This document shows, piece by piece, positions 3,315 to 27,232 of a stretch of 41,210 nucleotides of DNA (the stretch's first letter is position 1; each line of letters begins with the position of its first letter). A program made the position numbers and the translations under genes. Source of the stretch: a bacterium. Lineage in GTDB: Bacteria > Bacillota_I > Bacilli_A > RF39 > UBA660. The notes beneath the pieces are model-generated. The model was not told where the DNA came from. It saw only the letters and a list, made by a program, of their open reading frames with translations, and made no database searches. Location: contig JAQXHG010000044.1 in assembly GCA_029007115.1 (NCBI GenBank), positions 1 to 41,210 on the forward strand, written 5' to 3'.

Positions 3315-5429
3315 ATGAGTATAGAAGATTATGCTTTAGAATTAGGAATAGAAGAAAGTGTTGTTTTGAGCAAATTAAAAGAATTAGGTTTTAATTATAA
3401 TAACTCAAGTGATTATTTAGATGATGATGCGATAATTCTTTTAGATAATGAAAACTTGGCAGCTAAAGAAAATAAACTTACTGAAGAACTTGCTGATAAA
3501 TTTGAACTTGAAGATAGAGCAGAAGAAGCAGCAAGTGCTTATAGTATGGAATTTGAAAAAACTACTAGAAAAGAAAAAATAAAGAAAAAAGATAATAGTA
3601 AAAATAAAGATGAAGATTTATCTTTAAAGAAAAAGAATATATATAAGAACAAAACAAAGCTTCAGAGTAATAAAGAAGAAGTTGAAAGCAATGTAGTTTT
3701 ATACACAGAGGGTATGAGTGTCAATGATTTAGCAGTAGCTCTTAATGTTCCAGCAAGTGAATTAGTTAAGAAATTAATTAGTATGGGACTTATGATATCA
3801 TCTAATCAAGCAATTTCTTATGATGATGCTAGTATTATTGTTCTTGAATATAACAAGGAGTTAGTTAAAGAAGAAACTACTGATATTAGTAATTTTGAAG
3901 AATATGTTATTATTGACAAAGAAGAAGATTTAGTTGCAAGACCAGCAGTTGTTACAATTATGGGACATGTTGATCATGGTAAAACTACACTTTTAGATTA
4001 TATAAGAAATTCTCATGTAGCAAGTGGTGAAGCCGGTGGAATAACTCAAGCAATAGGTGCATATCAAGTAGAGAAGAATGGTAAAAAGATTACATTTATA
4101 GATACACCAGGTCATGCAGCATTTACAGAGATGAGAGCAAGAGGTGCTAGTGTAACAGATATTGTTGTTATAATAGTTGCTGCTGATGATGGAGTTATGC
4201 CTCAAACAAGAGAAGCAATTGATCATGCTAAAGCAGCAGGAGTACCTATAATTGTAGCAGTTAATAAGGTAGATAAACCTAATATAAATATAGATAAAAT
4301 AATGAGCGAATTATCTGAAATAGGTCTTACTCCAGAGGAGTGGGGAGGAGACACTATTTTCGTTAGACTTAGCGCTAAAACAGGACAAGGTGTAGATTTA
4401 CTTTTAGATAATATTAATGCTTTATCTGAAGTTTTGGAACTTAAGGCTAATCCAAATAGATATGCAACTGGAAGTGTAATCGAAGCAAAACTTGATAAGA
4501 ATAAAGGTCCAGTTGTAACATTATTAATTCAAAATGGAACATTAAGACTTGGAGATCCAATAGTTGTTGGAACTAACCATGGAAAGGTTCGTACTTTAAG
4601 AGACGATACTGGTCGTGAAGTAATATCAGCAGATCCTTCTAAACCTGTTGAGGTAACTGGTCTTGAAGATGTTCCAGTAGCCGGTGATAAATTTATGGCA
4701 TTTGAAAGTGAAAAAGAGTCAAGAAGTGTTGCATTAAAAAGAAAAGAAGTAGAAAAGAGCAAAAAATTTGCATATAAAGCACTTAGTTTAGATGAATTAT
4801 TTGAATCAATTAAAGAAGGTAAAAAAGAGATTAATATCGTTTTAAAAGCAGATGTTAAGGGCAGTGAAGAAGCAGTTAAAAATGCTTTACTTAAGATTAA
4901 TGTAGAAGGTGTTAAAATCAATGTAATTAGAAGTGGCGTTGGTACTATTACTGAAAGTGATGTAGTATTAGCACATGCATCTAATGCTATTATTATCGGA
5001 TTTAATGTAGTACCATCTAAATCTACTAAAGATACAGCAAAAGGTTATGAAGTTGATATAAGACTTTATAATATTATTTATAAACTAGTAGAAGAAATAG
5101 AAGCAGCTATGAAAGGTATGTTAGAGCCAGAATATGAAGAAGTAATTACTGGTGAGGCTGAAGTTAGACAATTATTTCACTTCTCTAAGATTGGAAATAT
5201 TGCTGGTTCACATGTAATTAGTGGTGTAGTTAAGTCAAATAGTCTATGTAGAGTAATTAGAGACGGTATAGTAGTTACAACATCTAAAATTGCATCTTTG
5301 CAAAGAGAAAAGAATCAAGCACATGAAGTTAAGAGTGGATATGATTGCGGAATTGTTGTTGAAAATTTTCCAGATATTAAAGAAGGAGATATAATTGAAA
5401 CATTTGAAAATAAGGAAGTGAAGAGATAA
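3315..5429 (+). CDS. infB: Translation initiation factor IF-2
   Basis: IF-2 is the GTPase that brings initiator fMet-tRNA to the 30S subunit. The 704 residues contain two IF2_N modules (about 3-50 and 130-180) joined by a Lys/Glu-rich linker. The G domain follows, with GHVDHGKT (217-224), DTPGH and NKVDKP, and then domains II, III and IV. ATG 3315 follows a strong AGGAGG (3301-3306); the in-frame TTG at 3309 is too close to that site to be the start. It ends by overlapping rbfA by one base (TAATG). A fairly short IF-2 (E. coli about 890), typical of Firmicutes. Confidence 0.97.
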   Translation: MSIEDYALELGIEESVVLSKLKELGFNYNNSSDYLDDDAIILLDNENLAAKENKLTEELADKFELEDRAEEAASAYSMEFEKTTRKEKIKKKDNSKNKDEDLSLKKKNIYKNKTKLQSNKEEVESNVVLYTEGMSVNDLAVALNVPASELVKKLISMGLMISSNQAISYDDASIIVLEYNKELVKEETTDISNFEEYVIIDKEEDLVARPAVVTIMGHVDHGKTTLLDYIRNSHVASGEAGGITQAIGAYQVEKNGKKITFIDTPGHAAFTEMRARGASVTDIVVIIVAADDGVMPQTREAIDHAKAAGVPIIVAVNKVDKPNINIDKIMSELSEIGLTPEEWGGDTIFVRLSAKTGQGVDLLLDNINALSEVLELKANPNRYATGSVIEAKLDKNKGPVVTLLIQNGTLRLGDPIVVGTNHGKVRTLRDDTGREVISADPSKPVEVTGLEDVPVAGDKFMAFESEKESRSVALKRKEVEKSKKFAYKALSLDELFESIKEGKKEINIVLKADVKGSEEAVKNALLKINVEGVKINVIRSGVGTITESDVVLAHASNAIIIGFNVVPSKSTKDTAKGYEVDIRLYNIIYKLVEEIEAAMKGMLEPEYEEVITGEAEVRQLFHFSKIGNIAGSHVISGVVKSNSLCRVIRDGIVVTTSKIASLQREKNQAHEVKSGYDCGIVVENFPDIKEGDIIETFENKEVKR

Positions 5430-25062: not shown

Positions 25063-25091
25063 AAAATGATATCAGTCTTTGATATCATTTT
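25063..25091 (-). terminator. Terminator of murT-gatD
   Basis: Read on the minus strand, AAAATGATATCA (25091-25080) pairs over 12 bp with its complement (25074-25063), followed by a T-rich tract. It spans the gatD stop codon. The stretch 24912-25062 before it holds no ORF; it contains a doubled AGGCTTT of unknown meaning. Confidence 0.75.
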
Positions 25092-25818
25092 CATCAATAA
25101 GTTTACTAGTGTGCTTTTCATATGCTTTAATAGATATTTTATCTAAAGATTTATATTTTAATTTTTTTAATTTACAAATATTATATAAAAAATAATCTAT
25201 TAGATATGGATTTCTAATAAATAGTGGACCAATTATATGGGTTGCATAAACATTTTTATAATTAAAGCCTTCTTTATTATTTTTTAAGTCATTTGAATAT
25301 TTTTCATTTGTTTCAAATAAAGGGCTTTTACTATTGATAACTAAGTCACATCTATTTTGAAAACCTATTATCTCTTCACTAATTATTTTTGATTTAGCTC
25401 TAACTTCACCGACTATTCTATTTCTAGAAGCATTATGAAATACATCTTCATTTAAATATTCAACATAATAATCAAATATGTTAAGAGCATCTACTTTAGT
25501 ATTAATAGTGTCAATATATTTACCAAACATATCCATAGAATTGCCAGTTAAAAATAAATATTTATTATCTTCAATATATTTTTTTATTTCTTGCTTTCTT
25601 AATTTTAAATCTTCAAGAGCAATTAGAATATCTTCTTCACTTCCACTACCAATATAGATAATATCATATTTATTAAAATCAATTTTGTCATTGATGCTTT
25701 TTAAGTCAACTTTTACTTTAATATTGTTTAGTTCTAAATTATGAACAATACATCTAGTATTAGCATTTTCTCCATAAAGGTTTAATAAATCATAATATAA
25801 ATGTAAAACATTAATCAT
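25072..25818 (-). CDS. gatD: GatD-like glutamine amidotransferase subunit lacking the catalytic Cys and His
   Basis: GatD normally supplies ammonia from glutamine to MurT, which amidates D-Glu of lipid II. The 248 residues follow the GatD pattern: LYYDLLNLYGENANTRC, DIIYIGSGSEEDILIAL, then a GatD-like C-terminal half. The nucleophile motif ICGGYQ is replaced by TGNSMD (91-96), and no Cys lies near it. The catalytic-His motif YLHGP reads HIIGP, with Ile196 at the His position. The ENHGG motif is QNRCD. So glutaminase activity should be lost. ATG (complement 25816-25818) follows AAAGGAGG and overlaps murT by eight bases. Alternative: a CobB/CobQ-type relative with another role. Confidence 0.8.
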   Translation of the reverse strand: MINVLHLYYDLLNLYGENANTRCIVHNLELNNIKVKVDLKSINDKIDFNKYDIIYIGSGSEEDILIALEDLKLRKQEIKKYIEDNKYLFLTGNSMDMFGKYIDTINTKVDALNIFDYYVEYLNEDVFHNASRNRIVGEVRAKSKIISEEIIGFQNRCDLVINSKSPLFETNEKYSNDLKNNKEGFNYKNVYATHIIGPLFIRNPYLIDYFLYNICKLKKLKYKSLDKISIKAYEKHTSKLIDENDIKD

Positions 25819-27142
25819 TATTTTCCTCCTTTATTATTTTTTTTAGTTGTATTTCTTTATCAAAGCAAACCATGGAATATATATTTCCTTTAGTTTTATT
25901 TTTAAGTATATCTTTTAAATTATTTATATCTTCAACAAGAATAATTTTTTCTTCATTAATTTTTGCATATTGCATTCTAAGATGCATATCGTAACAAAAT
26001 TTACCAATAAGAATAATATTTTTAATTGATGAATCATTTAAACTTTCAAAATCTATATCGTATATCCATGATATATCATTTTCTTTATATCTTCGACTAG
26101 ATGTATCAAAACCAAGTATTATAGTTTTATTACCTTTTTGATGTAATATATAATCTAATGATTGTTTATAACTTAAGTTGTTTTCATTTTTACTTGCTAA
26201 CATTTGCCATTTACGATTATCAAAATTATAAATATTTAATCTTTTAGTTTTAATATCAGCATTTAATACATTTATTATTTGATTATCTTCAAGACCGATT
26301 GTTTTAGATAATGCATAGCATCCAGTTACAAAATATGCTGTATATAAAAAGTCTGAAGGTAATTTAATTATATTATTATTGATAGTTATATTCTTATTTT
26401 CAATGTCTATATTTTGAGCTTCATATTGAGGCTTACCTCTATAAAAGTGATGATGTGAACATTCATATGATCCAAGATGACCATAATGATAGAATTCATA
26501 TTCTAATTTTTCATGACATATAGGACAATAAGCAGCATCTAAATTATTAATATTACTTTTTGTTGAATAATTATTTTTTGATAATCCATAACTAGTGATT
26601 AGACCTTCATGATTGATTCTAAGTCTATTTACAAAAGGATCATCTACATTTAATATAAGATTAGTTCCGTTTGGAATAGCTGTTTTTATCTCATTATATA
26701 TTTTATATGGGTGAGAGTTTCTTGGTGGTTGGTCTCTTGTAATATTAGTAATCATTAAATGAGTAGGGGTTATATATTTAAAAATATATTTCATGAATTG
26801 TTCATCTAATTCCATTAATAATACATCTTTTTTAAGCTTTCCACATAATGTTGAGTTATTTAATATTAAAGAAGTGATAGCATTAATTGTGTTACTTCCT
26901 TCTTTGTTATAAACGACAGTATAATTATTTTTTGTTAATATATTATACATAAGTTCAGTGCTAGAACTTTTGCCACTAGAACCTGTTATTCCAATAACGT
27001 ATTTAGGAAGTTTAATTTTACTAAGTATGTTTTTATCTAGTTTTAAAGCATAATGTCCACCAATAACACTTCCTTCATGGCCCATTAATTTACTTATTTT
27101 ATTAATTAATTTACAAGTTAGTATAACTATAAATTTATACAT
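25811..27142 (-). CDS. murT: MurT-like Mur ligase
   Basis: MurT is a Mur-ligase-family protein that, with GatD, amidates the D-iso-glutamate of lipid II. The 443 residues show the N-terminal region GSVIGGHYALKLDKNIL, a P-loop GITGSSGKSSS (51-61), and a zinc ribbon in the central domain (CPICHEKL at 206-213 and CSHHHF). The ribbon ligands are probably C206, C209, C228 and His231, the fourth usually being Cys. The C-terminal DUF1727-like domain has DISWIYDIDFE. The family KNPAG motif is replaced by KNENN. I start at the ATG whose complement is 27140-27142, with TAGGTGATAAT before it; nine more codons are possible upstream. Operon with gatD. Confidence 0.85.
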   Translation of the reverse strand: MYKFIVILTCKLINKISKLMGHEGSVIGGHYALKLDKNILSKIKLPKYVIGITGSSGKSSSTELMYNILTKNNYTVVYNKEGSNTINAITSLILNNSTLCGKLKKDVLLMELDEQFMKYIFKYITPTHLMITNITRDQPPRNSHPYKIYNEIKTAIPNGTNLILNVDDPFVNRLRINHEGLITSYGLSKNNYSTKSNINNLDAAYCPICHEKLEYEFYHYGHLGSYECSHHHFYRGKPQYEAQNIDIENKNITINNNIIKLPSDFLYTAYFVTGCYALSKTIGLEDNQIINVLNADIKTKRLNIYNFDNRKWQMLASKNENNLSYKQSLDYILHQKGNKTIILGFDTSSRRYKENDISWIYDIDFESLNDSSIKNIILIGKFCYDMHLRMQYAKINEEKIILVEDINNLKDILKNKTKGNIYSMVCFDKEIQLKKIIKEENND

Positions 27143-27166: not shown

Positions 27167-27232
27167 CACTTATTTTAAAATTTAATAAAGATTGATCATT
27201 AAAATGATTAGGTAATAACGATAAATATATTG

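Follow-up and report, generated by a model that had tools for sequence, protein, structure and literature searches.

The MurT/GatD lipid II isoglutaminyl synthase, described in Staphylococcus aureus, Streptococcus pneumoniae and Streptococcus pyogenes, is a coupled glutaminase-ligase and is essential in several pathogens. In S. aureus GatD, glutamine is captured by Arg128 (PMC5871853). The C94G mutant of this protein was inert with glutamine and supported NH3-dependent amidation of lipid II at pH 8.5, not at 7.5, and the non-catalytic GatD was still required for this reaction in vitro (PMC3266927). Human CPS1 also lost its catalytic Cys, retained the class I amidotransferase part and uses free ammonia (PMC4655335), while the archaeal MurT-like ligases are relatives of MurT without a glutaminase partner (PMC11915815). 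No description of a MurT-GatD lineage with a lost glutaminase was found among the open-access papers searched.

Such a pair was analyzed here in a bacterium of the RF39 lineage, in a stretch of 41,210 nucleotides which is called the window. Compared with the MurT/GatD enzymes described so far, the pair and its clade have the same two-gene operon, the same folds, Arg128, and the ATP-site and acceptor-site residues of MurT. Differently, the clade GatD has T-G-N and IGP and lacks Cys94 and His189, and the clade MurT carries an altered loop, an SRRY motif and an altered zinc ribbon. The Cys-to-Gly change is identical to that of C94G, but the mutant was made in the laboratory with His189 intact, whereas the change in the clade is natural and fixed. 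CPS1 is a different synthase in which Cys became Ser and His was kept, and the archaeal ligases belong to pseudomurein archaea which have no GatD gene.

The altered GatD and its MurT partner

The gatD-like gene encodes 248 aa at 25072-25818, as the earlier note had placed it, and lies on the minus strand, as do all features of the pair given below. It is preceded by a clear ribosome site (AAAGGAGG), and its start lies inside the end of murT with an overlap of 8 nt. The GatD/CobQ-type class I glutamine amidotransferase fold was recognized by PF07685 (40 bits against a cut-off of 27) and by sequence matches to four distinct solved GatDs in the PDB (E 1e-23 to 1e-25, with 2e-25 among them); the NCBIfam GatD equivalog NF045636, a model of a narrow kind, gave 102 bits against a cut-off of 400. 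When the AlphaFold2 model (mean pLDDT 88.9, pTM 0.88) was compared with PDB folds, the top nine matches were all solved GatDs, with TM scores to the query of 0.76-0.84. The closest were 5n9m, 6gs2, 9sq9 and 6fqb, and the TM score against S. aureus GatD was 0.82-0.84.

The alignment with S. aureus and S. pneumoniae GatD was ungapped around the former active site. TGNSMD (residues 91-96, 25531-25548) occupies the nucleophile elbow and puts Gly92 at the position of Cys94; HIIGP (residues 194-198, 25225-25239) replaces the His motif, with Ile196 at His189; and QNRCD (residues 154-158, 25345-25359) stands for ENHGG, with Arg156 at His149. All three replacements had been read from the sequence in the earlier note and were borne out by the alignment. 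In the model, the strand/helix turn that normally holds the nucleophile fell at T91/G92. The glutamine-capturing Arg128 is kept as Arg134, in RNRIVGE (25405-25425). Judged from these residues, the glutaminase is almost certainly dead.

A second, intact GatD in the same genome was rejected, since neither PF07685 nor the DNA pattern ICGG[YF]Q gave a further match in the 93%-complete assembly. Other class I amidotransferases and GlnA were not found by motif in the sampled 41% of the genome (about 515 kb), a search by regular expressions, which are a weak test.

The murT gene (25811-27142) encodes 443 aa from the ATG at 27142, in a frame open from a GTG at 27169. Both a MurT_C domain (PF08353, 79 bits against a cut-off of 25) and a Mur ligase middle domain (PF08245, above cut-off) were found, and the protein matched S. 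aureus MurT (7q8e) with an E-value of 9e-50. The claim that murT is intact stood for the ATP-site and acceptor-site residues, as K59, N85, E108 and D110/E111 are all present, and the ATP-binding loop GSSGKS (26966-26983; canonical GTNGKT) keeps its Lys. The claim did not stand for the loop facing GatD, which reads RDQPPRNSHP (26708-26737) instead of RDQMDRFGE, or for the zinc-ribbon insertion (26444-26527), which holds three Cys and has His or Asp for the fourth Cys ligand in this genus. The segment SSRRYKENDISWIYD (26057-26101) contains the clade motif SRRY, new in these MurTs, beside the retained Asp of NDISW, which corresponds to S. aureus D349 and faces the GatD active site. A reversal of the MurT gate from negative to positive charge was considered and dropped, because D349 and the next acid remain.

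Conservation of the altered pair in genus and family

Based on the comparison with related genomes that the earlier note had called for, the loss was found to be fixed. In each of the 18 genus members a gatD-like gene without Cys and His is present, and more divergent copies with the same losses were detected in G001 (one) and G010 (two). A GatD match was obtained in 61 of 145 genomes of the family, sampled at nearly one per genus; 58 of the 61 were of the dead type, two were intact with ICGGFQ and YLHGP (G040 and G061) and one was ambiguous (G105). Some Clostridia MAGs also carry the dead type.

The family, together with MAGs of Bacilli and Clostridia, supplied 122 deduplicated MurT-GatD pairs, which were compared in S. 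aureus numbering. Position 94 is Gly in all 122, flanked by Thr at 93 (118 pairs) and Asn at 95 (113 pairs), giving the conserved clade motif T-G-N-[S/A] at the old elbow. Position 189 is Ile, Leu or Val in 118 pairs and His in none. The constancy of Gly at 94 together with the absence of His at 189 is far beyond chance. Arg128 is retained in 100 pairs and Tyr17 in 116, and position 19 is acidic in 121.

Every one of these GatDs is paired with a MurT. The residues K59, N85 and D110 of MurT are kept in 121/122 pairs each, E108, E111 and D134 in 120/122 each and R138 in 119/122; position 349 is Asp in 98 and Glu in 13. Mutants of the S. pneumoniae or S. aureus enzyme have shown that these residues matter, and D139A and E143A in the S. 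pneumoniae protein had minor effects (PMC6085368, PMC6113224). These two loop acids which tolerate Ala are the ones changed in the clade. On this residue pattern, MurT is very probably an active ligase.

In an unrooted MurT tree from a quick search, a single branch (SH-aLRT 97) separated the intact pairs from the rest. The dN/dS values (Nei-Gojobori), taken from the same four closest genus pairs with dS up to 0.41, were 0.07-0.31 for gatD and 0.04-0.13 for murT, and purifying selection acts on both genes. The dead GatD marks a clade-wide variant of MurT-GatD, spread over a large group of uncultured gut bacteria, and is not a quirk of one genome.

Two divergent dead-type pairs were present in each of the genomes G010, G160, G079, G102, G103, G044, G116 and G129, which suggests that the pairs do different jobs and catalyze more than one reaction.

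Wall-synthesis background of the pair

A total of 82 neighbourhoods were sampled. The gene names in them come from inspection of the sequences, with Pfam checks limited to FtsA, FtsW and the PBPs. Besides MurT, the commonest recurrent neighbours were FtsA (14 loci) and FtsZ (13 loci), joined inside the genus by Psd and PssA (13 each). FtsQ and MurB each recurred in six neighbourhoods, mostly with MurG, so that the pair is frequently placed beside ftsA-ftsZ or murG-(murB)-ftsQ. In the window, gatD is adjoined by a gene for a VanY-type D-Ala-D-Ala carboxypeptidase (PF02557; 23708-24655, plus strand).

The same genome encodes MurC, a DAP-type MurE, a MurF-like protein, MraY and MurG, and MurD was not found in its 93%-complete assembly. 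Replacement of MurD by the altered pair was rejected, as most members of the genus hold at least five Mur-ligase matches including MurT, and many members of the family hold both MurD and a dead pair. The MurF-like protein (530 aa; contig C15, 940-2529 of locus L124) matched the MurF model from position 61, under the cut-off, and has a membrane-like N-terminal part before the match.

In five genomes (G002, G038, G060, G093 and G099; loci L198-L207 and L265-L268), the single Mur ligase middle domain is that of the MurT in the dead pair. MurC to MurF were not found in these five, nor in G051 and G151, where the matches to MraY and MurG were likewise strong. G002 belongs to the same genus and is 94% complete. 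All five keep MraY, with strong matches, and MurG, weak in G093; FtsW was present in the sampled stretches of three of the five, and a class B PBP in both of the MurC-F-less genomes checked by Pfam. The wall pathway of these genomes is thus retained at the lipid stage without the soluble-stage ligases. Since MraY and MurG are kept with the pair where MurC to MurF are gone, the pair travels with the lipid-linked stage and not with the soluble stage. For RF39 and its relatives, published surveys have described the absence of precursor steps and proposed muropeptide scavenging, in passages that mention neither MurT nor GatD (PMC10868615, PMC7301438).

Reaction of the pair

With Cys and His lost from GatD and a ligase alongside that seems to work, the pair must either use free ammonia or carry out a new reaction. 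The earlier note had offered the same choice; its premise held, and ammonia agrees best with the C94G mutant and the kept MurT residues, but another nucleophile would also be compatible with the sequence. Given the C94G result and the CPS1 precedent, the reading favoured here, tentatively and at somewhat below even probability, is an active lipid-stage MurT amide ligase that takes free ammonia and needs its catalytically dead GatD for structural reasons. GatD would have lost its glutaminase chemistry and been retained as a subunit that sets conformation, to which the lost residues, the fold and the pairing point. MurT would bind ATP and activate a carboxylate of a wall precursor attached to lipid, likeliest the D-Glu of lipid I or II, in line with its catalytic residues, the wall and division neighbours, and the persistence of the pair alongside MraY and MurG where MurC to MurF are missing. 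Free ammonia would enter by the old GatD-MurT passage and attack the acyl phosphate. As parts of this reading, a lipid-stage wall substrate is probable, and ammonia as the nucleophile has about an even chance.

If this were true, a widespread natural lineage would show that the structural role of GatD alone is worth keeping, and would offer a naturally occurring system in which to test the use of ammonia or a change of nucleophile. It would also bear on how reduced gut bacteria with missing parts of precursor synthesis build their walls.

Several observations count against it. By analogy, the failure of the C94G enzyme to use ammonia at pH 7.5 speaks against ammonia. The absence of MurC to MurF from five genomes is an argument against D-Glu of lipid II as the acceptor, as it leaves the source of D-Glu-bearing lipid II in question. 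The two divergent pairs per genome suggest more than a single reaction. The invariant T-G-N, Arg128 and the new SRRY are not predicted by loss of catalysis alone and suggest a kept ligand. Together with the paralogous pairs, these features argue for some remaining function of the pocket, which could lie in the use of another nucleophile or in sensing.

With a different nucleophile, MurT would couple the lipid-linked acceptor to some amine that is not ammonia, such as an amino acid, and the old pocket (Arg128, T-G-N and the Arg at 149) would bind this amine or another ligand. This is rather unlikely: the clade-specific invariants at the old site, SRRY beside D349, the retained Arg128, the double pairs in several lineages and the role of the pair as sole Mur ligase in five genomes all agree with it, but MurT is still MurT-like and the residues of the GatD-MurT interface are mostly retained. 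A more specific proposal, which we regard as unlikely, is that the clade pair became a new lipid-stage ligase, which attaches something other than ammonia from glutamine to a MurNAc precursor on its lipid carrier; the pocket would be reused for a ligand, and the pair would serve as the sole Mur-type ligase where MurC to MurF were lost.

With a sensing role, GatD would bind glutamine or glutamate without hydrolysis and gate MurT. The retention of Arg128, Tyr17 and the acid at 19 in most pairs despite the lost chemistry is consistent with this, but the residues lining the pocket near the former nucleophile have been exchanged, and glutamine binding is perhaps lost too. Sensing would fit ammonia or another amine alike and is not exclusive of either; we consider it quite improbable.

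Persistence of the glutaminase through substitute residues is very improbable. Thr91 and Asn93 are almost invariant, and His194 and Cys157 are close to the old site in this genus, but Ile or Leu stands in the place of the base, and a substitute Cys or His was rejected as not conserved among the 122 pairs (Cys157 in 22, His at the position of 194 in 32).

Sequencing error, misassembly or local decay might be suspected in a MAG of 92.8% completeness and 4.6% contamination, but is ruled out by fixation of the same residues throughout the genus and in many other genera of the family, together with open frames, the ribosome site and purifying selection.

Relatives of another kind were also noted. 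In two genomes from another family of the class (G198 and G187; loci L230 and L231), a different dead GatD with an AIEQ elbow and QLRGP lies beside MurT, possibly a separate loss. A GatD relative of 35% identity is encoded at 3488-4111 (minus strand) of MT837974.1, a 5.9-kb record from human faeces labelled "Bacteriophage sp.", which may be a mislabelled bacterial contig.
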